A DNA stretch of 26,605 bases, from the IMG/VR virus record IMGVR_UViG_3300043425_000517, positions 1 to 26,605 of that record, one strand, 5' to 3'. The notes beneath the pieces were generated by a model, which ran no database searches, was not told the DNA's origin, and saw nothing but the letters and a program-made list of their open reading frames with translations. Of the stretch, positions 7,098 through 21,128 are shown piece by piece; position 1 is the first letter of the stretch, and the number at the start of each line of letters is the position of its first letter. Both the position numbers and the translations under genes were made by a program. Source of the DNA: a virus.

Positions 7098-7778
7098 ATG
7101 ACCCATTACATCACCCAAGACCTTTTGCCCCTTGCTACGGCCGTTGAGAGCCTAAAGCCGGCCCAAAAAAACCCACGCGTAGGTGACATCGAAGCTATCC
7201 GTAAAAGCTACGAACGCTTTGGCCAGCGCAAGCCGATCATCGCCAACCGCGCCACGCGTGAGGTCATAGCCGGCAATCACCAACTAGCCGCCGCGAAGCA
7301 ACTTGGCTGGGCACAGATCGCGGTCGTGTGGGTAGATGATGACGAAGCTACCGCCACCGCTTATTCCGTTGCCGATAACCGCATTGGTCAGCTAGGCGAG
7401 TGGAATGTTGAGGCGCTAGTAGATGCGCTAGCGGACATTGACCCAATAGATCTAGGCGCGACTGGTTTCAGTCAAAGCGACTATGACGATTTTGTTGCTT
7501 TGCTAGATGAGCAGGTTGGATCTATCGCCGCAACCGCCGCACCAGAAACCGATACCGAGCGAAGCATAGACGCAAACTTACAAGTGAAGAAAGATAGCAG
7601 TTACGCAGAGTTCTTAGAGCGTTACGCCAACCGCGCTGTTCGTGCGATAATTCTCTACTACCCAAACGATGAGTATGGCAAAATGATAGAGGATCTAAAA
7701 ACCCTCGGCAAGAAATACGACACCGAGGACAACGCGGAAACGATCGCCGCGCTAGTGAGGGAGAAACTGAGTGAGTAA
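7098..7778 (+). CDS. ParB-like nuclease-domain protein
   Basis: This 226-residue protein has the ParB/sulfiredoxin N-terminal fold: LKPAQKNPRVGDIEAIRKSY (residues 19-38), then FGQRKPIIANR and EVIAGNHQLAAAKQLGW (the nucleotide-binding GxH/R loop), then VWVDDDEATATAYSVADNR. The C-terminal third has no recognised domain. It is not fused to a methylase and is not paired with ParA, so plasmid-style partitioning is unlikely. ParB-superfamily proteins often accompany phage TET/JBP dioxygenases and terminases, where a role in targeting or processing modified DNA has been suggested but not proved. Its stop overlaps the dioxygenase start by eight bases. AGGAGA lies before ATG 7098. Confidence 0.85.
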   Translation: MTHYITQDLLPLATAVESLKPAQKNPRVGDIEAIRKSYERFGQRKPIIANRATREVIAGNHQLAAAKQLGWAQIAVVWVDDDEATATAYSVADNRIGQLGEWNVEALVDALADIDPIDLGATGFSQSDYDDFVALLDEQVGSIAATAAPETDTERSIDANLQVKKDSSYAEFLERYANRAVRAIILYYPNDEYGKMIEDLKTLGKKYDTEDNAETIAALVREKLSE

Positions 7779-8658
7779 GTTACCAGAGTTTTTTATCAAG
7801 AGGGTCTTGTCTAAGGAAGAAGCCGATAAGGTCGTTGGCGTGACTGTTGAGGATAGCGAAGTCAATGTCAATGAAGCAGGGATCTATCGCGACGCCGATA
7901 CCGGTGAAGCAATCTTGGTTTATGCGCCTTACCCTGCGCCAGTCACAGAACTACGCAAGGCCGTTCTAGAAACTGAATACTCGACCACGCTACGCGCTAG
8001 CGGAACGCGAAACAATAGCCGCGTCTTTGGATTTACTAATCGCTCGGCCGTCTTACAACGCGAAGCCTGCACTCCGACTTCGCTATCTTGGGAAAACCCA
8101 GAAGCGCAAATGACCCTAAATAACACCGCCGAAATTTTAGGGAACTATCTACGCGAACAACTGCCAGAAGTTTTTGAACACGACTACCGCGAAGTTTCTC
8201 AGGTGCTACCAGAGTGGCGTATGACCGAGGACGCGCTATGGACTTCTGGTGTTATCAACCAGAGTTCAGCTTTGCCTTATCACCGCGACGGATCTAACTT
8301 TGACACCTGGTCAGCTATGCCGGTAATTCGTAGAGGTATGGACGGCGGAAACTTACATATGCCGGAATATGACATTACGATCAACTGCCGCGATGGTTAT
8401 GCGCTTTGGTTCAATGGTTATGCGTATGTTCATGGAGTTACGCCGCTAAAGCCTAGAACTAAAGATGGCTACCGCTATTCGATAGTGTTCTACGCTAAGC
8501 GAGGTATGAAAGATTGCCACACTTACGCCGTAGAAGTTGGCGAGGCTCGCAAGCGGCGCGCCGAGCGCGAAGCTGGTATGGTCGAAGATGACCTAACAGC
8601 AATCAAAGAAAAGATCAAGACAGGAAGATCTAACGGCGATACGCGCATTGTAAACTGA
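7771..8658 (+). CDS. TET/JBP-like 2-oxoglutarate/Fe(II) dioxygenase
   Basis: This 295-residue protein shows the metal triad of the double-stranded beta-helix dioxygenases: H171-R-D173 (in LPYHRDGSNF), distal H221 (in YVHGV), and R235 (in YRYSIVFY) to bind 2-oxoglutarate. The segment RVFGFTNRSAVLQRE (85-99) and the layout around the triad resemble phage TET/JBP enzymes, which oxidise the methyl group of 5-methylcytosine or thymine in DNA. GTG 7771 is preceded by AGGGAG and overlaps the ParB-like gene. A glycosyltransferase follows directly, and a C5 methyltransferase occurs in the same genome, so oxidation of 5-methylcytosine is the favoured reaction. A dioxygenase acting on another substrate cannot be excluded from sequence alone. 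Confidence 0.75.
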   Translation: MSKLPEFFIKRVLSKEEADKVVGVTVEDSEVNVNEAGIYRDADTGEAILVYAPYPAPVTELRKAVLETEYSTTLRASGTRNNSRVFGFTNRSAVLQREACTPTSLSWENPEAQMTLNNTAEILGNYLREQLPEVFEHDYREVSQVLPEWRMTEDALWTSGVINQSSALPYHRDGSNFDTWSAMPVIRRGMDGGNLHMPEYDITINCRDGYALWFNGYAYVHGVTPLKPRTKDGYRYSIVFYAKRGMKDCHTYAVEVGEARKRRAEREAGMVEDDLTAIKEKIKTGRSNGDTRIVN

Positions 8659-8678
8659 ACATCGAAAGAACCCACACT

Positions 8679-9470
8679 ATGGATTATCAAATACCCATAC
8701 CTAGCTATAACCGCATTGAAACTTTGCGGAAAGCAACGCTAGCCACGCTCGAAAGACACGATACGGATCCGCGGCGCGTGACTATTTTCGTGGCGAACGA
8801 TGAGCAATACAAAGAGTATCGCGAAGCTATTGACCGCAAATACGAGATAGTGGTGGCCGAGCTAGGACTACTAAATGCCAAGCGCTTCTATCACAATTAC
8901 TATGACTCTGGCACAAAACTATTCAATGTTCTTGATGATGTTTATTCACTAAAGCAAAAAGACGGCGAAAAGATGGCCGATTACTCCGGAACTATTGACG
9001 AGCTAGTCAGCTTAGGCTTCCGCGCCAGCGAGAAAGTCGGCGCGAAGATGTGGGGAATCAACCCAGTTACCAACGGCTTCTTTATGAAAGATCAGATCAC
9101 TATTGGATTGCGTCTAATTTATGGAACAATTTATGGTGATTACGCTGGTAATCCATCTGTTCTAGGGAAAAGAGTTATGGAAAGTCCGAGCGGCGAAGAT
9201 TGGGAAAACTCAATCAGCAGTTTTATTGCCAACGGATCTCTAGTTCGTATCGAATGGATCGCGCCGGTTAGCAAGCTATTTGCTAAAGGCGGTATGTCGG
9301 ACGAACTAAAGCTACGCGGAACTGACCGCAAAACTGAACACGAACTACACCTAAGAGCTATTGCCGCCGCGTATCCGGATCTATGTTCGATCTACTACAA
9401 GGCCGGCGATGTTATCAACCTAAGACTAAAAAACATTACCCACGCTCGCATACCAAAAGGAACAATCTAA
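8679..9470 (+). CDS. GT-A-fold glycosyltransferase, probably DNA-modifying
   Basis: This 263-residue protein opens with a typical nucleotide-sugar binding start: IPIPSYNRIETLRKATLATL (residues 5-24), then VTIFVANDEQYKEYR. The acidic metal-binding site is LFNVLDDVYSL (81-91; D86, D87), the DxD equivalent of GT-A enzymes. SGEDWENS (171-178) resembles the acceptor-side acidic motif. It is compact, has no membrane segment, and follows the TET/JBP-like gene by 20 bases. Phage TET/JBP-associated glycosyltransferases of this kind are thought to glycosylate hydroxymethylated bases. The Shine-Dalgarno is weak (CGAAAGAA) before ATG 8679. Confidence 0.75.
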   Translation: MDYQIPIPSYNRIETLRKATLATLERHDTDPRRVTIFVANDEQYKEYREAIDRKYEIVVAELGLLNAKRFYHNYYDSGTKLFNVLDDVYSLKQKDGEKMADYSGTIDELVSLGFRASEKVGAKMWGINPVTNGFFMKDQITIGLRLIYGTIYGDYAGNPSVLGKRVMESPSGEDWENSISSFIANGSLVRIEWIAPVSKLFAKGGMSDELKLRGTDRKTEHELHLRAIAAAYPDLCSIYYKAGDVINLRLKNITHARIPKGTI

Positions 9471-10478
9471 ATGAAAGTAGTAATTACAGGAGTAGCCGGC
9501 TTTCTTGGCTCACACTTAGCCGATAAGTTTTTGGCCGAGGGTCACGAAGTAGTCGGTATTGACAACCTAATCGGTGGATACGAAAGTAACATTCCGAGCG
9601 GCGTAGAGTTCTATAACCTAGATCTAGCAACCGATTTAGATGCGCTTACGCCAGCTTTTGTCGGATCTGAAATGGTTATTCACGCCGCTTGCACAGCTTA
9701 CGAGGGTCTTAGCGTCTTTAGTCCGAGCCTAGTTGTCGCTAACACTACGCAAGCTACGGTAAATACACTTACCGCGGCGATCCGTAACGGCGCTAAGAAG
9801 TTCGTCTATCTAAGTTCTATGGCGCGATACGGCGATCACGGCGGCAAGCTATTCGATGAAAGCGATGAAGCGCGGCCACAAGATCCTTACGGCATAGCAA
9901 AGTTAGCTAGCGAAAAGCTAGTCCGTAATCTTTGCGAGGTTCATAACTTGGATTGGATTATTTTGGTGCCGCATAACATCATTGGGCCACGCCAGAAGTT
10001 CGATGATCCATTCCGTAATGTTGCTTCGATTATGGTGAATAGAATGCTGTCCGGTGAGCAACCGATTATCTATGGTGACGGAACTCAGCAAAGATGTTTT
10101 AGTTTTATTGAGGATGTTGTTGAGCCACTATGGGTTGCGTGTAACAGTCCAGAAGCCGTAGGCGAAGTTATCAACATTGGCCCAGACGAAGAACACATAA
10201 CTATCAACAAACTAGCGACAACGCTGGCAGAAATTATCGGCTTTGACTTAGATCCGATCTACAAAACTGGCCGGCCGCAAGAAGTAAAGATTGCGTTATG
10301 TTCTTCTAATAAAGCTAGGCGATTGCTGAACTATAAAACCAGCGTAGATCTAAAGACCGGCCTAACTAGATTGGTGGATTGGATCGAAGCGCAAGGATCG
10401 CGTAAGTTCCACTATCACTTGCCAATCGAAATTATCAACGAGAAAACTCCCGAAACCTGGACTAAGAAACTTTTCTAG
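9471..10478 (+). CDS. NAD-dependent nucleotide-sugar epimerase/dehydratase
   Basis: This 335-residue extended short-chain dehydrogenase has TGVAGFLGSH at residues 6-15 for NAD binding and D31 for the ribose hydroxyls. It carries LSSMARYGD with the catalytic Ser region (115-117) and the YxxxK pair Y140/K144 in DPYGIAKLASEKL. The C-terminal half (IIYGDGTQQRCFSFIEDVV, EVINIGPDE) matches UDP-glucose 4-epimerase-like enzymes that bind the sugar. The exact sugar cannot be predicted. It directly abuts the glycosyltransferase (stop 9470, start 9471), so it probably prepares the sugar nucleotide for it. AAAGGA serves ATG 9471. Confidence 0.88.
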   Translation: MKVVITGVAGFLGSHLADKFLAEGHEVVGIDNLIGGYESNIPSGVEFYNLDLATDLDALTPAFVGSEMVIHAACTAYEGLSVFSPSLVVANTTQATVNTLTAAIRNGAKKFVYLSSMARYGDHGGKLFDESDEARPQDPYGIAKLASEKLVRNLCEVHNLDWIILVPHNIIGPRQKFDDPFRNVASIMVNRMLSGEQPIIYGDGTQQRCFSFIEDVVEPLWVACNSPEAVGEVINIGPDEEHITINKLATTLAEIIGFDLDPIYKTGRPQEVKIALCSSNKARRLLNYKTSVDLKTGLTRLVDWIEAQGSRKFHYHLPIEIINEKTPETWTKKLF

Positions 10479-10486
10479 GACTCATA

Positions 10487-10936
10487 ATGCCAGTTGGTAG
10501 ACCGCCGAAACCGCTAGAGGAAAAGCGCAGACTAGGCAATCCAGGCAAACGCGCTTTGCCGGATAGTCGCGAGGTTATTCCGCTAGAGGCGGCTTCTGGC
10601 GTACCCGAACCGCTAAGGCCACTAGGCAAGATGGGTCGTGAATTTTGGGATCGAACTTGGCTAGTTGGTATGAACTGGATAAGCCCTAAAGCCGACATCG
10701 AACTAATGATGATGACCGCAGAGATGATAGACGAAAGAACTATTTTGAGAACTTTAGTTTTCCAGGATCGCAACGCTGACCGGCCAAAACTTAGAGCCGG
10801 TTTGCGCGAACTAGAAAAGCAAATCCAAAGCAACTTAGCGTTACTTGGATTATCGCCAGCCGATCGTGCGCGGCTAGGCCTCGCAGAAGTCAAACGCCAG
10901 AGCAAGCTGGCCGAGCTAAAGCAGATGGGTCAATGA
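10487..10936 (+). CDS. terS: Terminase small subunit, P27 family
   Basis: This 149-residue protein begins MPVGRPPKPLEEKRRLGNPG, typical of P27-type small terminases, with a helical middle. It ends with LGLSPADRARLGLAEVKRQS, the other conserved block. The subunit recognises the phage DNA at the packaging start and recruits the large subunit. CTAGGA precedes ATG 10487. Its stop overlaps the large terminase start (10933) by four bases. A long antisense frame across this gene is taken as a shadow. Confidence 0.88.
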   Translation: MPVGRPPKPLEEKRRLGNPGKRALPDSREVIPLEAASGVPEPLRPLGKMGREFWDRTWLVGMNWISPKADIELMMMTAEMIDERTILRTLVFQDRNADRPKLRAGLRELEKQIQSNLALLGLSPADRARLGLAEVKRQSKLAELKQMGQ

Positions 10937-12590: not shown

Positions 12591-13942
12591 TGCTTAGGGA
12601 TTTATTCGAGAAAAGAGCTATCAGCTATCAAACTCTGTTTGCGGCTGGCGATGACATAGATTTTGCTAGCGCCTCGGCAACCAAGATCAACCCCGAAACA
12701 GCTTTCCGCATCAACGCAATCTTTTCTGCCGTATCCCTAATTAGCGATACCATTTCTACTTTGCCGCTAGACGCTTATGTAAGAGCCAACGGCAACCGAT
12801 TCCCGATGAGGCCTCGACCAGATTGGGTGTATAAGCCGGACATTGACACTACTCGCGCTAGCTTCTATGGCCAAGCGATCGTATCGTTACTAATTGACGG
12901 TAATGCTTTCATTCGTGTATTTACTCGCCGCGGCCAGGTTGTAAATCTAACTGTTCTAAACCCTAACAAGGTTGAGATCAAGCGCGAAGCCTACGGCCAA
13001 GTTCGATTTATGGTTGAGGGTGAAAACAAACCGCTAACTCCGGAAGAATGTATCCACATACCAGACGTGGTTCGTCCAGGATACTTGCGCGGACTTAGCC
13101 GCGTAGAGCAACTAAAAGAAAACTTTGGTTTGGCGATGGCGCTAGAAATGTACGCCGCTAAGTTTTTTGGTCAAGGTGCGACAACTCAGGGAATTATAGA
13201 GTTCCCAGATGAGCTAACTGCTGAACAAGCTCGCGAACTAGCGCAGTCTTTCGATTCACGCCACCGCGGTTGGGGTCGCGCTCACAAGACCGGTGTCCTA
13301 ACTAGCGGCGCTAAGTATAAAGAAACCAGCGTCAATAATGATCAGGCTCAGTTCATAGATTCTCGCCGTATGGCAGTTGAAGATGTTGCTCGTGCTTTCA
13401 ATGTTCCGCCGCACCTACTCGGATTGCCCGGAACTAACAGCTACGCCAGCGTAGAGCAGAACAACCTAGCGTGGGTAACTCACGGACTTCGCCCAATTAT
13501 TCAGAAGATCGAAGATGCGCTCTCGCCACTACTAGCACTATCCCCTAACGGCACGGACGCTTTCTTGCGCTTCAACATTGACGGCCTATTACGAGCAGAC
13601 ATAAATAGCCGTATGAGCGCTTACAGCACCGGACTACAAAGCGGCTTCCTAACTATCAACGATGTTCGCCGGCTAGAGGATCTAAGGATCATTCCGGATC
13701 CGTCTGCCGACACAGTTCGTGTTCCGCTAGCTAATGTAAATGTTGAGGCAAGCACAATCAATCAACAAGACAAGCGCGTAAGTATGGCCGCGAAGCTAGT
13801 TCAGGTTGGTTTCAAGCCGGAAGATGTTCTAGCCGCGCTAGACATACCACCAATCGGACACACCGGTATCCCAAGCGTTCAGCTACAAAACTTAGCGAAT
13901 TTAGATCCGGCTGATCCAATCGGATTATACGAGGAGAACTAA
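12590..13942 (+). CDS. Portal protein, HK97 type
   Basis: The 450-residue protein shows the typical HK97-family portal features: an N-terminal AFRINAIFSAVSLISDTISTL helix, SLLIDGNAFI, and CIHIPDVVRPGYLRGLSRVE. VEDVARAFNVPPHLLGLPGT and SYASVEQNNLAWVTHGLRP follow. It forms the dodecameric channel at the capsid vertex through which DNA is pumped. It begins in a TAATG overlap with the small membrane protein and ends in a TAATG overlap with the next gene. The C-terminal extension (about residues 390-450) is polar and low in complexity. Confidence 0.93.
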   Translation: MLRDLFEKRAISYQTLFAAGDDIDFASASATKINPETAFRINAIFSAVSLISDTISTLPLDAYVRANGNRFPMRPRPDWVYKPDIDTTRASFYGQAIVSLLIDGNAFIRVFTRRGQVVNLTVLNPNKVEIKREAYGQVRFMVEGENKPLTPEECIHIPDVVRPGYLRGLSRVEQLKENFGLAMALEMYAAKFFGQGATTQGIIEFPDELTAEQARELAQSFDSRHRGWGRAHKTGVLTSGAKYKETSVNNDQAQFIDSRRMAVEDVARAFNVPPHLLGLPGTNSYASVEQNNLAWVTHGLRPIIQKIEDALSPLLALSPNGTDAFLRFNIDGLLRADINSRMSAYSTGLQSGFLTINDVRRLEDLRIIPDPSADTVRVPLANVNVEASTINQQDKRVSMAAKLVQVGFKPEDVLAALDIPPIGHTGIPSVQLQNLANLDPADPIGLYEEN

Positions 13943-14655
13943 TGGCTATTACTACACAGCTAGTCACAGTTGGCACAGCTAGCGCAACGCTTTCAGCACC
14001 AACGGTAGATGCGCAACTCTTATGGATAGAAAACTTAGAACCGTCTAATAATTTAGCCGATTATTCTCGCGAGGGTCACACCTACGTCTATACCCAATAC
14101 TTTCAGATAGCAAACGGCGGAACAGCTTTATTCTCATTTCAAACTGGCGCGACAGGAGCGCAGTTTGAGTTTTGGCAGTTTGACGCGCAATCCTCTAGCG
14201 TATTGGGCGAGTTGATCGAAAGTCCAACTGTAACTACAACTGGATCGAACTTGCCTGGACGCAACTTGAACAGAAACGTATCCGATAATCACTCCGCGGT
14301 TCTTAGAGCGGCAACAGCCGTAACTGGCGGAACAGTTATTTTTACTGAATTTGTTCCGGCTTCTAATCAAGACGGCGGCGGTGTGCAAAGCAATCAAGTT
14401 ATCACGCTCAAACCAAACACTCAATACGGATTTAGATTTACCGACAAAGGCGGAACTGGCACTTTCTTGCATATTCAAGTCGCTTGGGCAGAACAATACA
14501 ACGGCTACAACGACGTATGGATCAATGGACCTGCCTATAACGCAATCAGACTACGCGGCGGCGAGAAAATACAGCTCGAATTAGGTCAAGGCGAGGGTCT
14601 AACGGCGGTAGCCTTACGCAATGATGTTCAAGTTGCAGTTATGAGGCAAGACTGA
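13942..14655 (+). CDS. Probable virion structural protein of unknown type
   Basis: This 237-residue protein is beta-rich with many Gly/Thr/Gln/Asn residues and few charges (GTASATLSAPTVDAQLLWIE, YFQIANGGTALFSF, GGTGTFLHIQVAW, GEKIQLELGQGEGLTAVALR). That composition fits a jelly-roll or Ig-like surface protein. It occupies the place between portal and protease where no gene is required in HK97-like phages, so a decoration or head-associated protein is plausible. It starts within TAATG after the portal with GAGGAGA upstream, and ends in overlap with the protease fusion. I do not recognise a named family. Confidence 0.6.
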   Translation: MAITTQLVTVGTASATLSAPTVDAQLLWIENLEPSNNLADYSREGHTYVYTQYFQIANGGTALFSFQTGATGAQFEFWQFDAQSSSVLGELIESPTVTTTGSNLPGRNLNRNVSDNHSAVLRAATAVTGGTVIFTEFVPASNQDGGGVQSNQVITLKPNTQYGFRFTDKGGTGTFLHIQVAWAEQYNGYNDVWINGPAYNAIRLRGGEKIQLELGQGEGLTAVALRNDVQVAVMRQD

Positions 14656-16235
14656 TGCCGTACTACATAACCGATAGTCACCCTGATTGCTCGGCTTGGG
14701 CAACTATCAAAGAAGATGGGGAACTGCTAGCTTGTCACGCTACAAAGCAAGGAGCTATTGACCAGATGATCGCTGTATCTATTAGTGAGGGATTAGAGCC
14801 TGGTGGCGAAAGAGCTAAGCCAGGAGATCTAAGAGTTGGCGATTATGTTTCTTGGAACTCGTCAGGTGGCCGCGCTAGAGGTGAAATACAACGGATTGTT
14901 ACCAATGGCACGATAGATGTACCAAACAGTTCAGTATCCGTTACTGGAACTCCTGACGATCCGGCCGCACTTATTCAGGTTTACAGACCTGTTGAGGGTG
15001 GCGGTTGGGAAGATACCGATGTGTTTGTGGCTCATAAGTTTTCCACGCTAACAAGAATTGACGAATTACCAGAACCAATGGACGAACCGGACGACGAAGA
15101 TGACGACGATTTTGAGGAAACTCGCCAAGTCGATCTAACGCCGCCGGCGTATATGAGAGCGGCCGCTAGACAAGGCTTGCGCTATTACGAAGAAGGACTA
15201 GGTGGAGATGGATTGGTTGCGCGCACAATTAGCGAGGCTAGGGCTATGGCAAGCGGTTCTGTTACTGCTGATAAGTGGGTTCGCCTTAGGGCTTGGATTG
15301 CTCGCCATTTGGTTGATCTGGACAGTCCCGATGCCGATCCTAATTCAGACAATTATCCTAGCGCTGGTGTCGTAGCACATTTGCTCTGGGGAAGTGGGCC
15401 AAGTAAGAGAGCCGCGCAACGCGCACTTGATTACGCAGACGGAGTTGTTACTAGACTAGAAGAACAAAATCGCGCACTAATTAGCGCGAAAGGAGAGAGT
15501 ATGTCGAAAATTGAGATCCGCACCACGCCTGGATCTTTCGAGATCCGCGAGGACGGAAGCGGTATGACCTTTGAGGGATACGCCGCTGTATTCAATTCGG
15601 ATTCTGAGCCGCTACCCTTTATTGAGCGTATTGCCCCTGGTGCTTTTACGAGATCGCTAAAGCGTGGCCGTAATGACATAAAGCTACTTTGGAACCACGA
15701 AACCGGTGAGGTTCTAGGATCTACTCGTGCTGGAACGCTAACCTTGGAAGAAGATAACTATGGGCTAAGGGTGCGAGCAATCTTGCCTGATACTTCGACT
15801 GGTCGCGACGCGGCAGTTCTCCTAAAGCGCGGCGACATTGACTCAATGTCTTTCGGCTTCTCGGTGCCAGATGGCGGAGATGAGTGGAGTTCGGACGGCC
15901 GCACGCGTACCCTAAAGTCGGTAAGGCTTCACGAAGTAAGTATTGTGGCATTCCCAGCGTATTCCGCTACTGCCGGCACTACTTCTGTTCGTGGCCTAGA
16001 TAAGGTTGCCGCTCGCGCCGCCGTAGATAGTGACCAGTTGGCAGATGCTGTCTTGAAACTAGAAAGCGGTTCTGAACTAACTACCGATGATGCGCAACTA
16101 CTAAGAAAAGTAATTGACGAACTAGCACCGCTTCAAACCGCTAAGGCAGAAGAACAAGCCGCAAACGGAGATGTGGAAATGCTAGAACTAATGAAAGCAA
16201 AGCTAAAACTGATTGGCGGAAACAATGGCAACTAA
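14655..16235 (+). CDS. Fusion protein: N-terminal extension plus HK97-type prohead protease
   Basis: The 526-residue product has four parts. Residues 1-53 (MPYYITDSHPDCSAWATIKE onward) form a small conserved actinophage domain. Residues 55-135 resemble a TUDOR-like DUF2945 domain (VGDYVSWNSSGGRARGEI, VFVAHKFSTL). An acidic linker (EPDDEDDDDFEE) precedes a helical domain (about 160-275, AARQGLRYYEEGLGGDGLVA and later SAGVVAHLLWGSGPSKRA). From residue 283 on is the prohead protease. Its catalytic His is in LLWNHETGEVLGS and its Ser in IDSMSFGFSV, with HEVSIVAFPAYS after. The protease processes capsid and scaffold during maturation. A strong internal start at 15501 suggests a separate short form. 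The ATG overlaps the previous stop. Confidence 0.85.
   Translation: MPYYITDSHPDCSAWATIKEDGELLACHATKQGAIDQMIAVSISEGLEPGGERAKPGDLRVGDYVSWNSSGGRARGEIQRIVTNGTIDVPNSSVSVTGTPDDPAALIQVYRPVEGGGWEDTDVFVAHKFSTLTRIDELPEPMDEPDDEDDDDFEETRQVDLTPPAYMRAAARQGLRYYEEGLGGDGLVARTISEARAMASGSVTADKWVRLRAWIARHLVDLDSPDADPNSDNYPSAGVVAHLLWGSGPSKRAAQRALDYADGVVTRLEEQNRALISAKGESMSKIEIRTTPGSFEIREDGSGMTFEGYAAVFNSDSEPLPFIERIAPGAFTRSLKRGRNDIKLLWNHETGEVLGSTRAGTLTLEEDNYGLRVRAILPDTSTGRDAAVLLKRGDIDSMSFGFSVPDGGDEWSSDGRTRTLKSVRLHEVSIVAFPAYSATAGTTSVRGLDKVAARAAVDSDQLADAVLKLESGSELTTDDAQLLRKVIDELAPLQTAKAEEQAANGDVEMLELMKAKLKLIGGNNGN
15501..16235 (+). CDS. Nested prohead protease from an internal in-frame start
   Basis: ATG 15501 lies in frame within the long fusion, and AAAGGAGA (15489-15496) stands at ideal spacing upstream. 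That is better than the site of the long form, whose start merely overlaps the previous stop. The 244-residue product (MSKIEIRTTPGSFEIREDGS onward) is exactly a standalone HK97-type protease domain, ending with a helical scaffold-like tail. The long and short forms could therefore coexist, as nested protease and scaffold genes do in other phages. Whether both are made is inference from the ribosome binding site. Confidence 0.6.
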   Translation: MSKIEIRTTPGSFEIREDGSGMTFEGYAAVFNSDSEPLPFIERIAPGAFTRSLKRGRNDIKLLWNHETGEVLGSTRAGTLTLEEDNYGLRVRAILPDTSTGRDAAVLLKRGDIDSMSFGFSVPDGGDEWSSDGRTRTLKSVRLHEVSIVAFPAYSATAGTTSVRGLDKVAARAAVDSDQLADAVLKLESGSELTTDDAQLLRKVIDELAPLQTAKAEEQAANGDVEMLELMKAKLKLIGGNNGN

Positions 16236-17414: not shown

Positions 17415-18572
17415 ATGTCTTTTGTAAAGGCACAGCAGGAACTCCGCGCAAACCTGACTTCGCAGATCCGCGAAGTTATCGACCTCGCTGAGGGAGAGAA
17501 GCGCGGACTTCGTGCGGATGAAGTTGAGAAAATTCAACGCATCGAAGCTGACATTACTGCCGCTGATGAGGCGATCGCAGTAGCACAGCGTAACGAGGAG
17601 CGCTCACGCGCTCTAGCTGAGGCAAGCGCAACCGCTACCCCAGCACCACAGCAGGTTCGTTCCGACTCGGAGATCCTACGCGCAATCGCAACTGGCGAAA
17701 TGCGTAGCGCAACTTTCGAGAAGCGCACACTAGTACCAAGCGACAACACAGTACCAAAGTCCTTCTATGACCAAGTATTCGCTGTTGCTCGTCTAGTTGG
17801 TCCAATGCTAGACACCTCTGAGATCATCAACACGACCTCTGGAGAATCTCTAACAATCCCAACTTTGACTGCTTACTCAACCGCAACCATCAAGGGTGCT
17901 GGTTCAGCAATCGCAGAGTCCGAGCCAACTTTCAGCTCGATCACTCTCGGAGCATACAAGTACTCATTCCTAGTCCAGGTAGCAAACGAACTGATCGCAG
18001 ATGCCGGCTTCGACATCTCCGCTCTAATTGCTGAGCAAGCTGGTAACGGACTTGGCTACGCTGTAAACACCGGCCTAACTCTAGGAACTGGAACAGTTGA
18101 GCCAACCGGTCTTGTTACTGCCGCTGGTTCTGCTCTAGTTGGTGGCACTGGTGTTGCTGGTGCTTTCACCGCTGACAACCTGATTGACCTTGCTTACTCT
18201 CTAGACGGAGCCGCTCGCAGACTGCCAGGTGTTGGCTACATGCTGAACGGATCTTCACTAGGCAAGATGCGCAAGCTAAAAGACACCGCTGGTAACTACC
18301 TATACCAGGTCGGAGTTGGACAGCCAGATACTTTCGCTGGCTTCCGCGTAGTAGAAAACCCAGCAATGGCAGACACCGCGACAAACGCAAAGTCTGTTAT
18401 TTTCGGTCACCTACCAAGCTACAAGGTACGTATGGCTGGCGGCCTACAAATCGCTCAGTCCGCGGACTACGCTTTCAACGCTGACACCACTACCTTCCGC
18501 GTGCTAATGCGCGTTGATGGAAACCTGACCCACAGCGGTCACGTCAAGTTCTTCAAGGGTGCGGCTAGCTAA
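17415..18572 (+). CDS. Major capsid protein, HK97 fold
   Basis: This 385-residue protein has an N-terminal helical, charged segment (residues 1 to about 75, coiled-coil-like, the delta/scaffold domain). An Ala/Pro linker follows, then the coat domain beginning near SEILRAIATGEMRSATFEKR. PKSFYDQVFAVARLVGPML, SESEPTFSSITLGAYKYSFL-type strands and VANELIADAGFDISALIAEQ follow the HK97 family pattern. The delta domain is probably removed by the protease encoded upstream. AAGGAGA lies before ATG 17415. It forms its own transcription unit between two terminators, as expected for the most highly expressed gene. Confidence 0.92.
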   Translation: MSFVKAQQELRANLTSQIREVIDLAEGEKRGLRADEVEKIQRIEADITAADEAIAVAQRNEERSRALAEASATATPAPQQVRSDSEILRAIATGEMRSATFEKRTLVPSDNTVPKSFYDQVFAVARLVGPMLDTSEIINTTSGESLTIPTLTAYSTATIKGAGSAIAESEPTFSSITLGAYKYSFLVQVANELIADAGFDISALIAEQAGNGLGYAVNTGLTLGTGTVEPTGLVTAAGSALVGGTGVAGAFTADNLIDLAYSLDGAARRLPGVGYMLNGSSLGKMRKLKDTAGNYLYQVGVGQPDTFAGFRVVENPAMADTATNAKSVIFGHLPSYKVRMAGGLQIAQSADYAFNADTTTFRVLMRVDGNLTHSGHVKFFKGAAS

Positions 18573-18589: not shown

Positions 18590-18635
18590 CCCGGAGAGAG
18601 CTTGTGTGTGGGTAGCTCTCTCCGGGTTTCTTTTT
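18590..18635 (+). terminator. Strong intrinsic terminator after the capsid gene
   Basis: CCCGGAGAGAGCT (18590-18602) and AGCTCTCTCCGGG (18614-18626) form a perfect 13-base stem with an 11-base loop, followed by TTTCTTTTT. This is the clearest rho-independent terminator in the window. Confidence 0.93.
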
Positions 18636-18637
18636 GC

Positions 18638-18649
18638 TATGCTTTGGCT
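18638..18649 (+). promoter_or_regulatory. Leaderless-type promoter for the GT4 glycosyltransferase
   Basis: TATGCT (18638-18643) sits six bases before ATG 18650, the spacing at which transcription would start on the A of the start codon. No Shine-Dalgarno exists between the terminator and the ATG. No convincing -35 is visible because that region is the terminator stem. Confidence 0.5.
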
Positions 18650-19858
18650 ATGCCCACAAATGACCCACGCAAAACTGAGAAACTATCCGGCGCTGTAACC
18701 TTTTGGTCTAACAGCCCAGGAGTACCTACTGGCTACGGAGTTCAAGCGAAGCTCGTAGTCGATCGCCTAAAGCGCCACGGCCTAGATGTTGCCGCACTAA
18801 GCAACTATGGATTAGATGGCCGCTTTGAGGATCTAAATACGCCTTACGGCAAAGTACCGCATTACCCTCGCGGCTACGATGGTTATAGCAACGATGTAGC
18901 ACCAGGAGATCACTTACATTGGGCCAAGTTACATCCCGATCTAAAAGACCTAATGATTACCCTGTTCGATGTTTGGGTATTCAACTCACCTAAATTTGCC
19001 GATGTTAGAAAGATCGCTAGTTGGGTGCCGATTGACCACATAACAATCCCACCGCTAGTCGAGGCTTGGCTAAGACGTGAGAATGTTCATCCGATAACTA
19101 TGGCCCCAAACGGATCTAAACTGCTAACCCAAAAAGGTATAGAACACTCTTACGTTCCGCACAGCATAGATACCAAAGCGTTCAAACCGCGAACTGAGTT
19201 GCCAGATGGCCAGAAAATAGAAGATTACTTTAGTTCTAAAAACAAGTTCGTAGTCGGGATGGTAGCCGCTAATAAGGCCAGCGGACTTGTTCACAGAAAG
19301 TCTTATAGCGAGAACATTCTTGCTTTCTCAATCTTCAAGCAAAAGCACCCAGACGCAGTTCTCTATTTACACACCGAGCCGCTTGGCTACGCTTCGGGCT
19401 GGAACTTGCTAGAACTAATTACGGCGTGCGGACTATCTAAAGATGATGTAATGTTCCCTGATCCTCGCGATTATCGCTACGGCGTGAGCGATGAGATGAT
19501 GGCAACACTTTATTCCGGTATGGATGTTTTGCTAGCGCCAAGTATGGGTGAGGGGTTTGGCGTACCGACTATGGAAGCGCAAGCCTGTGGCACTAGGGTT
19601 ATTGGCTCAGGTTGGGCGGCTAGCGAGGATCTAATCTCTAGTGATGGCTGGTTAGTGGATGGGCAACCTCAATGGGATAGTGCTCAAAAAGCGTGGTGGC
19701 AGATCCCCAAAGTTCCGTCAATAGTCAATGCTCTAGAAGAAGCCTACGCCAAAGGTAAAGGCAGAAGCGAAGTTGCGCGTGAGTTCGCTAAGGACTTCGA
19801 TGTCGAAAAGGTTTGGTTTGATAATTGGATGCCGACCCTAAAAAAACTACTTGCCTAA
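18650..19858 (+). CDS. GT4-like glycosyltransferase (GT-B fold)
   Basis: This 402-residue protein opens with AVTFWSNSPGVPTGYGVQAK, the Gly-rich acceptor-side loop of GT-B enzymes. It has the donor-binding signature LLAPSMGEGFGVPTMEAQAC followed by GTRVIGSGW, where the EGFG...E element contacts the nucleotide sugar. No membrane segment is present. ATG 18650 (MPTNDPRK) is preferred over a GTG or TTG further upstream, which would lie inside the terminator. It has a leaderless-type promoter directly after the capsid terminator and is followed two bases later by a second glycosyltransferase. Targets could be virion proteins or modified phage DNA. Confidence 0.85.
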   Translation: MPTNDPRKTEKLSGAVTFWSNSPGVPTGYGVQAKLVVDRLKRHGLDVAALSNYGLDGRFEDLNTPYGKVPHYPRGYDGYSNDVAPGDHLHWAKLHPDLKDLMITLFDVWVFNSPKFADVRKIASWVPIDHITIPPLVEAWLRRENVHPITMAPNGSKLLTQKGIEHSYVPHSIDTKAFKPRTELPDGQKIEDYFSSKNKFVVGMVAANKASGLVHRKSYSENILAFSIFKQKHPDAVLYLHTEPLGYASGWNLLELITACGLSKDDVMFPDPRDYRYGVSDEMMATLYSGMDVLLAPSMGEGFGVPTMEAQACGTRVIGSGWAASEDLISSDGWLVDGQPQWDSAQKAWWQIPKVPSIVNALEEAYAKGKGRSEVAREFAKDFDVEKVWFDNWMPTLKKLLA

Positions 19859-19859
19859 A

Positions 19860-20492
19860 ATGAAACTAATTGTCCCGGTTCTAAATCGCTACGATCTGCT
19901 AAACAGGATGGTAGCCAGCATAGATTATCCAATCGAGATGTTGCTAGTCATAGACAACGGCAATGCCGACACCGAGATTATAGAAAATCCAAACATCAAA
20001 GAAGTTCGCAGATTACATATGCCAACTAATCAAGGCGTAGCCGGTAGCTGGAACTTAGGTATAAAACTCCTACCCTTTGAGCCGGTTTGGTTCTTTAGTT
20101 CGGCTGATACCGAATACAAGCCTGGAGCGTTAGCTAAATTAGCCGAGGCCAGCCCTAGCGCTGTGACCTTATGTAAAGAATTTCCTTACTGGCAGACTTT
20201 CGCTATCGGTGAGCAAGTGGTCAGGCAAATTGGCTTATTCGATGAGAACCTATACCCGATCTACTTTGAGGACAATGACTATATGAGGCGCTGTATTCAA
20301 GCGCAAATTGCGATAGTCTATGCCGATGTAGTGGTTCATCACGACAATAGTTCCACAATAAATAGCGACCCCAACCTACACAATCAGAACCGCAGAACTT
20401 TTGCCGACAATGAAAACTATTTCAAACAAAAATACGCCGGACTTTGGCATTGGTCTTTAGATCGCCGCCGGCAAAATTACTGGCAACTTTAG
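19860..20492 (+). CDS. GT2-like glycosyltransferase (GT-A fold)
   Basis: This 210-residue protein begins MKLIVPVLNRYDLLNRMVAS, with LLVIDNGNADTEII, NQGVAGSWNLGIK, and FFSSADTEYKPGALAKL (the DxD equivalent is ADTE). The acceptor-side motif is FEDNDYMRRC. It is like the rhamnosyltransferase-type GT2 enzymes but shorter than most. ATG 19860 follows the GT4 stop by one base, so the pair is probably coupled; TTG 19851 would give three more residues. No Shine-Dalgarno is obvious. It works with the preceding GT4 gene, target unknown. Confidence 0.83.
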   Translation: MKLIVPVLNRYDLLNRMVASIDYPIEMLLVIDNGNADTEIIENPNIKEVRRLHMPTNQGVAGSWNLGIKLLPFEPVWFFSSADTEYKPGALAKLAEASPSAVTLCKEFPYWQTFAIGEQVVRQIGLFDENLYPIYFEDNDYMRRCIQAQIAIVYADVVVHHDNSSTINSDPNLHNQNRRTFADNENYFKQKYAGLWHWSLDRRRQNYWQL

Positions 20493-20501
20493 CCAGACAG
20501 A

Positions 20502-20514
20502 CTAGCGCTACAAT
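20502..20514 (+). promoter_or_regulatory. Promoter for head-tail connector unit (AGCGCTACAAT motif)
   Basis: CTAGCGCTACAAT is identical over 13 bases to 22386-22398 and very close to AAAGCGCTATAAT at 16568-16580. TACAAT (20509-20514) serves as -10 and predicts a start near 20521, just before AAGGAG (20523-20528) and ATG 20535. No -35 is clear. Confidence 0.6.
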
Positions 20515-20534
20515 GGATACCTAAGGAGATCCCA

Positions 20535-21128
20535 ATGGCAATTACTAATGGTTACGCAACCCTCGCTCAGGTCAAGGCCGCTATGCGTATTTCGGACAAT
20601 GTTGATGACACTTTGATTGAAACGGCGATTGAGTCAGCGTCACGCCAGATAGACGGACATTGTCAGCGCCGCTTCTATACAACAACCACCACTAGGGTTT
20701 ATACACCGAACGATAGCTACATCACCGAGATTGACGATCTAGTAAGCCTTACTACTCTTAGAACTCAAAGCGACATTGACGGAACTTACGACACAACTTG
20801 GGCGGCTACCGATTATCAGCTAGAACCGCTAAATGGTATTGCCGGCGGACTAAATGTTAGCTACACCCAGATCCGCGCTGTTGGCGATTTTCTTTTCCCA
20901 ACTTTCGGCGGTGAAGCGACTGTTCAAGTCACCGGAACTTTTGGCTGGGCAACTGTTCCTAGCGAAATAAAGCAAGCCTGTATCATTCTCAGTCAGCGTC
21001 AATACAAGCGCTATGACTCACCGCTAGGCGTAGCCGGTGTCGGAGAAATCGGTGTGATTAGAGTTAGCCGTATAGATCCGGACGTTGCTTCGATCCTCGC
21101 GCCGTATCGCCGGATTAGGATGGCGTAA
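20535..21128 (+). CDS. Head-tail connector protein (gp6/gp15-like)
   Basis: This 197-residue protein begins with the typical connector helix pattern: YATLAQVKAAMRI, then DDTLIETAIESASRQIDGHC and QRRFYTTTTTRVYTPNDSY. It continues with VSLTTLRTQSDIDG, DYQLEPLN and VQVTGTFGWATVPSEIKQAC, and ends ILAPYRRIRMA. These match adaptor proteins that bind below the portal in HK97-like phages. AAGGAG precedes ATG 20535. It leads the head-tail joining block and abuts the next gene at 21129. Confidence 0.85.
   Translation: MAITNGYATLAQVKAAMRISDNVDDTLIETAIESASRQIDGHCQRRFYTTTTTRVYTPNDSYITEIDDLVSLTTLRTQSDIDGTYDTTWAATDYQLEPLNGIAGGLNVSYTQIRAVGDFLFPTFGGEATVQVTGTFGWATVPSEIKQACIILSQRQYKRYDSPLGVAGVGEIGVIRVSRIDPDVASILAPYRRIRMA

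Follow-up and report, generated by a model that had tools for sequence, protein, structure and literature searches.

Two glycosyltransferase genes, of GT4 and GT2 type, lie between the capsid and head-tail adaptor genes of a freshwater bacterial virus whose 26,605-base record we call the window, and comparison with relatives indicates that they are this phage's form of a modular, rapidly swapped capsid glycan cassette. Glycosylation of the virion is their likely role, in preference to glycosylation of DNA. More tentatively, and a little short of even in our judgment, we propose that one nucleotide-sugar epimerase supplies a single sugar both to the capsid through GT2 and to hydroxymethylated DNA through a TET-associated glycosyltransferase (TAGT). 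The features concerned are:

380 to 1,069, + strand: C5-cytosine methyltransferase-like protein (Pfam PF00145, E 9.4e-8)
7,098 to 7,778, + strand: ParB-like protein, before TET (PHROGs, E 7e-37)
7,771 to 8,658, + strand: TET/JBP 2OG-Fe dioxygenase (Pfam PF12851, E 1.3e-7, just under the cut-off)
8,679 to 9,470, + strand: TAGT, a TET-associated (DNA) glycosyltransferase (Pfam PF20691, E 1.8e-4, under the cut-off)
9,471 to 10,478, + strand: nucleotide-sugar epimerase, extended SDR (Pfam PF01370, E 3.9e-50)
17,415 to 18,572, + strand: major capsid protein, HK97 fold, Phage_capsid (Pfam PF05065, E 1.5e-53)
18,590 to 18,626, + strand: predicted intrinsic terminator hairpin 3′ of capsid, then a T run (-27 kcal/mol, z -4.4)
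18,638 to 18,643, + strand: -10-like TATGCT of a putative leaderless promoter (TANNNT-N6-ATG comparison across relatives)
18,650 to 19,858, + strand: GT4-type glycosyltransferase, 402 aa (Pfam Glyco_trans_1_4, E 5.9e-9; PHROG glycosyltransferase, E 5.2e-38)
19,860 to 20,492, + strand: GT2-type glycosyltransferase, clade alpha, 210 aa from ATG (Pfam Glycos_transf_2, E 3e-8; PHROG galactosyl transferase, E 1.4e-48)
20,535 to 21,128, + strand: head-tail adaptor (PHROG head-tail adaptor, E 1.9e-26)

The GT4/GT2 transcription unit

Gene order in the window runs from the C5-methyltransferase-like, ParB-like, TET/JBP, TAGT, and epimerase genes through terminase, portal, protease, capsid, GT4, GT2, and adaptor to the tail genes, the terminase, portal, and tail names having been assigned from position and by eye. 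The same phage is represented by L002/L021 (IMGVR 3300047476_000189), which is 99.95-100% identical across the overlap and extends past the window's right end. The portal-protease interval holds a 237-aa gene (13,942-14,655; PHROG of unknown function) that is absent at the same place in siblings L005 and L155 and found again in several relatives, and the prohead protease (14,655-16,235) carries an Hva1_TUDOR domain at its N-terminus.

Both glycosyltransferases are maintained by purifying selection (GT4, dN 0.047 and dS 0.80 versus L003; GT2, pN 0.19 and pS 0.86 versus L142, dS being saturated). GT4 has an EX7E motif by eye, and D83, E137-D138, and H161 of GT2 are invariant in 14 aligned rows. 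No transmembrane stretch was found in either protein (highest 19-aa hydropathy 0.97 for GT4 and 1.26 for GT2). The predicted GT2 structure has a mean pLDDT of 72 and best PDB matches at TM about 0.5 or less, and we call its fold only GT-A-like, nothing finer. Neither protein matches the TAGT family; their Pfam matches are to the general group 1 and group 2 glycosyltransferase models.

The earlier note had placed this pair between a capsid terminator and the head-tail connector, under its own leaderless-type promoter, and both parts of that description hold up: the two reading frames, terminator, and adaptor all lie as described, and the promoter is conserved across relatives. The hairpin has a 13-bp stem and an 11-nt loop; TATGCT is separated from the GT4 ATG by 6 nt, no good Shine-Dalgarno is seen there by eye, and the transcript is predicted to start at the ATG itself. 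Of 95 distinct capsid-GT4 intergenic regions, 69 contain TANNNT-N6-ATG, far above 200 mononucleotide shuffles (mean 3.0, maximum 8); a hairpin followed by a T run is present in 73 of 96 (a count without shuffle control). A generic promoter/terminator scan of the window missed both signals, returning 1 promoter-like site versus 3.4 expected, and it missed the hairpin because its loop limit is 8 nt; we dropped the scan as a basis in favor of the comparison of relatives. Upstream of the adaptor, TACAAT (20,509-20,514) and AAGGAG (20,523-20,528) were noted by eye only.

Cassette exchange and GT2 clades

The usual cassette consists of GT4, GT2, and then mostly a donor-making gene. Among 118 capsid-adaptor loci, a redundant set that takes in loci picked by other scans, we found GT4-GT2-epimerase in 50, GT4-GT2-cytidylyltransferase in 25, no gene at all in 10, GT4-GT2-epimerase-methyltransferase in 7, and GT4-GT2 alone in 6 (five from the window's own phage, plus L078), the other 20 falling into thirteen rarer orders. 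Capsid-scan contigs, drawn from 80 kept of 371 relatives with near-identical ones collapsed, give 43 non-redundant cases with both ends visible: 21 GT4-GT2-cytidylyltransferase, 6 with no gene, 2 GT4-GT2-epimerase, 2 GT4-GT2 (the window's phage and L078), and 12 others. In 36 of these 43, GT4 occupies the capsid-adaptor interval, a position among the head genes that we take as a mark of a virion-glycosylation locus. Among solved structures, the TagD-like cytidylyltransferase (Pfam PF01467) matches cytidylyltransferases for glycerol-3-phosphate (E 1e-19) and ethanolamine-phosphate (E 5.5e-24). On an 89-row capsid tree, 16 changes are needed to account for cassette type (epimerase, cytidylyltransferase, other, or none), and near-identical capsids can carry different cassettes, as in L041 (epimerase) versus L070 (cytidylyltransferase). 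One capsid column, S239 of the window, is S or T in 76 of 80 capsids with glycosyltransferases versus 0 of 9 without; the comparison is post hoc, concerns 1 column of about 390, and is confounded by kinship (the 9 rows represent about 3 clades), and we treat the column as a lead only.

The GT2s fall into three clades that differ in their neighbors: alpha adjoins a nucleotide-sugar epimerase, beta adjoins the TagD-like cytidylyltransferase (beta partners were assigned from the capsid-adaptor gene orders), and gamma adjoins neither. In the first GT2 scan an epimerase lay directly 3′ of GT2 in all 10 contigs besides the window's own, and in the first tree (98 rows, fragments below 150 aa such as the 50-aa piece of L101 left out) the window fell in a 15-row clade (support 100/97) whose 13 other distinct phages are all epimerase-adjacent, the last row, L154, being the window's own phage. 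Since an epimerase scan had shaped that set, we rescanned with GT2 only (80 relatives kept, out of at least 575). In the second tree (114 rows, identical sequences collapsed, fragments below 180 aa and minus-strand matches such as L231, L232, and L234 left out) there are 42 alpha, 41 gamma, and 29 beta rows. Alpha comprises 39 epimerase-adjacent GT2s, 2 cut at the contig end, and the window; after removal of 5 rows that came from the epimerase scan alone, all 34 with a visible downstream gene have an adjacent epimerase, the window being the exception. The adaptor directly follows 32 of the 41 gamma GT2s, none of which is followed by an epimerase; the following gene is not visible in the other 9, 8 of which lie in another context. 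The window's GT2 lies deep within alpha in both trees, yet lacks the adjacent epimerase. The basal branches of alpha and gamma have moderate support (SH-aLRT 84 and 86), the epimerase-adjacent L163 branches basally in beta, and neither L207 nor L011 belongs to any of the three groups, so that over the whole tree the match of clade to partner gene is strong, not perfect. Away from the capsid region, a gamma-like GT2 is paired with an MptE-like protein at L292:3650-4959, L296:5336-6645, and six like loci; in the two loci inspected, the pairs adjoin DNA-methyltransferase-like or HNH-like genes by eye.

The DNA-modification cassette and its epimerase

The window's TET protein is about 39-49% identical to actinophage proteins, some annotated as Tet-like. 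TAGT is 48% identical to an L116 protein that is itself above the Pfam cut-off, and its predicted structure (pLDDT 90) resembles viral models named TAGT (TM about 0.7) and a beta-glucosyl-HMC-alpha-glucosyltransferase model (TM 0.69). We therefore read 7,771-9,470 as a TET/JBP gene with an adjacent TAGT, under the Pfam cut-offs and with support from PHROGs, actinophage homologs, and fold; the C5-methyltransferase-like protein presumably carries out the first step of the modification.

The epimerase, about 9.4 kb upstream of GT2, is the sole representative of its family identified in the record and appears constrained (dN 0.026, dS 0.66 versus L155). Of 81 epimerases in a tree, 65 come from capsid cassettes, and those of five DNA cassettes (the window, L155, L156, L105, and L103) form one clade (SH-aLRT 93) nested among them, the branch just outside being moderately supported (83); the sixth epimerase from a DNA cassette, in L112, is a distant enzyme with 25% identity. 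Because the five DNA-cassette copies nest among the capsid ones, they are most simply explained by a single derivation from a capsid cassette. Each TAGT of the type seen in the window, four in all (in the window's phage, L156, L105, and L155), has the epimerase as its next gene. Elsewhere among 43 TET-scan loci, which include the window's phage, TAGT is more distant (40-60% identity) in 14 that have a visible TerS and no epimerase and in one that carries the distant epimerase; 7 with a TAGT below 40% carry none. At L112:2520, TAGT is followed in the same slot by an unrelated epimerase (25%), as if sugars were swapped there too, and the TET-epimerase interval of L103 encodes a protein (1743-2564) that has no Pfam or NCBIfam match and is possibly another type of DNA glycosyltransferase.

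We attempted to name the sugar from the epimerase and abandoned the attempt: the closest enzymes of solved structure, UDP-glucose 4-epimerases and the like, share little identity with it, NCBIfam matches are all far under cut-off, and cellular neighbors are mixed. The nearest cellular relative, at 71%, is a lone chromosomal gene of Candidatus Aquiluna (L315:5992-7005), and a Luna-1 host would fit such a source.

Two sibling contigs, L005 spanning TET to GT2 and L003 spanning capsid to tail, are 83-96% identical to the window in DNA, with three breaks: i) at 8,694-10,496, where the window has TAGT and epimerase, L005 carries a TAGT 30% identical to the window's (above the Pfam cut-off) and no epimerase; ii) at 13,953-14,652, the window has an extra gene; and iii) at 19,851-20,505, where the window has its GT2, L003 has a beta GT2 and cytidylyltransferase. 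Both sugar loci are thus replaced together relative to the sibling; the break at 13,953-14,652 means that replacement extends beyond them, and the window's GT2 and epimerase need not share an arrival.

A proposed shared donor, rival readings, and known systems

We envisage GT4 and GT2 as soluble enzymes of the cytosol, expressed from the pair's own leaderless promoter. On a virion protein, the capsid being the probable one, they would build a short glycan: GT4 would attach the first or inner sugar and GT2 the next, using a nucleotide sugar from the epimerase at 9,471-10,478. This epimerase would once have been part of a GT4-GT2-epimerase capsid cassette; in the window's lineage it lies within the TET-TAGT cassette, and there TAGT would probably transfer the same sugar to 5-hydroxymethylcytosine, one donor enzyme feeding both systems. 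These steps are not equally secure. That the acceptor is a virion protein seems quite probable; that GT2 draws its donor from this epimerase, and that TAGT uses the same donor, each has somewhat more for it than against. The account as a whole, with a virion glycan and a donor enzyme common to the capsid side and TAGT, we consider about evenly poised between right and wrong, and it is a tentative suggestion that capsid and DNA glycosyltransferases were exchanged together in this lineage so as to leave the same sugar on shell and genome. The argument for a shared donor is that each GT2 clade swaps together with a donor-type gene, suggesting that the gene after GT2 supplies its donor; since the window's GT2-partner gene sits in the DNA cassette, the donor would be shared. 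The earlier note's interpretation is partly borne out: virion glycosylation through the capsid-side genes is supported by gene context and precedent, and the sharing of the epimerase product, which it had called unusual, becomes the reading that gene order best favors: every other visible member of the GT2's clade is epimerase-adjacent, and the only epimerase in the window lies in the DNA cassette.

It is rather unlikely, but worth weighing, that the two systems are separate: GT4 and GT2 would glycosylate the virion using a donor from the host, and the epimerase would serve TAGT alone. Aquiluna, the likely host group, encodes its own 71% identical epimerase that could feed GT2, and the 32 gamma GT2s that adjoin the adaptor, like L078 with no partner gene, indicate that GT2s of this superfamily can manage without an epimerase. 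Also against the shared-donor reading, the five records with a capsid-derived epimerase in the DNA cassette include the window and four that end before capsid, so that both sides are visible in one phage only. Against separate systems stand the 34 of 34 other visible alpha cases and the joint change of both loci versus the sibling.

The earlier note had also suggested that GT4 and GT2 extend a sugar on hydroxymethylated DNA, for which the TET-TAGT cassette in the same genome, and an epimerase connecting both loci, could be cited; we consider this very improbable. The DNA cassette has its own TET-associated glycosyltransferase, and a search of 51 whole records (picked among the longer contigs, not all of them, and some perhaps fragments) found TET in 11, epimerase in 23, and GT4 in 43, with TET and epimerase together in the window's own phage alone. 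As for INDEPENDENCE from DNA modification, 37 of the 51, complete phiPsal1 among them, have GT4 and lack TET; conversely, 5 records have TET without GT4, the capsid running directly into the adaptor in 4 of them (of the 11 with TET) and G025 ending within the capsid gene. The other six TET-positive records with a readable capsid GT2 include four beta (G026, G034, L005, and L006), no alpha, and two without epimerase that are gamma-like, G029 by identity and order and G033/L125 by tree. Presence of GT4/GT2 is therefore not tied to TET in either direction, and we rejected DNA as their target. Modification of host surface glycans to block superinfection is also quite improbable. Such a surface role, or else a DNA-protective one, has been proposed for glycosyltransferases of the freshwater Nanopelagicales actinophages E7/F5 (PMC10202952), and a relative of the epimerase adjoins GT2-like genes in a Lachnospiraceae genome (L317, by eye); against this, GT4 and GT2 lie inside the head gene block, lack membrane segments, and have no flippase-like gene beside them in the cassette loci seen.

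Phage DNA hypermodification and virion glycosylation are studied separately; in this phage, the sibling comparison and the order of genes point to one sugar supply. The capsid cassette is, in addition, a swap site at which alpha and beta GT2s each travel with their own donor-making gene. Gene order there allows sugar chemistry to be predicted and offers pairs for testing among freshwater actinophages, which are abundant and for the most part uncultured.

Gtr-type serotype conversion employs a membrane glycosyltransferase with a flippase, features that GT4 and GT2 do not share: neither protein contains a hydrophobic stretch, and nothing like a flippase gene was seen in the cassette. The window's upstream cassette is of the same kind as the TET-TAGT hypermodification systems of actinophages; GT4 and GT2 are outside the TAGT family and unlinked to TET. 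Synechococcus phage S-CBS4 has a GT4-GT2-methyltransferase run of the same enzyme classes near portal, but is distant (GT2 29%) with different head genes; the methyltransferases of S-CBS4 and phiPsal1 are 53% alike. In the mycobacteriophages Corndog, Che8, and Myrna, virions are reported to be glycosylated, and phage-encoded glycosyltransferases of Che8 and Corndog are stated to be needed for capsid glycosylation (PMC12363180, citing Freeman 2023). Corndog has an O-methyltransferase and glycosyltransferases in its portal-protease interval, for which capsid modification was suggested (PMC4351075). With tblastn we found no mycobacteriophage homologs of GT4 or GT2 (matches were to 6 phage records for GT4 and 3 for GT2). 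A donor enzyme shared with a DNA cassette is absent from the descriptions of those systems in the sections consulted, and titles, abstract beginnings, and selected passages of the literature yielded no report of an epimerase shared by capsid and DNA systems. The closest comparison is the Pontimonas phage phiPsal1 (MG835450), recovered from a culture of Pontimonas as a minor circular contig and left without further study (PMC6106888). Neither TET nor epimerase was found in its complete genome. Its order, capsid-GT4-methyltransferase-GT2-neck, is otherwise that of the window, with GT4 51% and GT2 49% identical and the same terminator and leaderless promoter; unlike the window, it has a methyltransferase (on the opposite strand) in place of epimerase, and its GT2 belongs to the gamma set.
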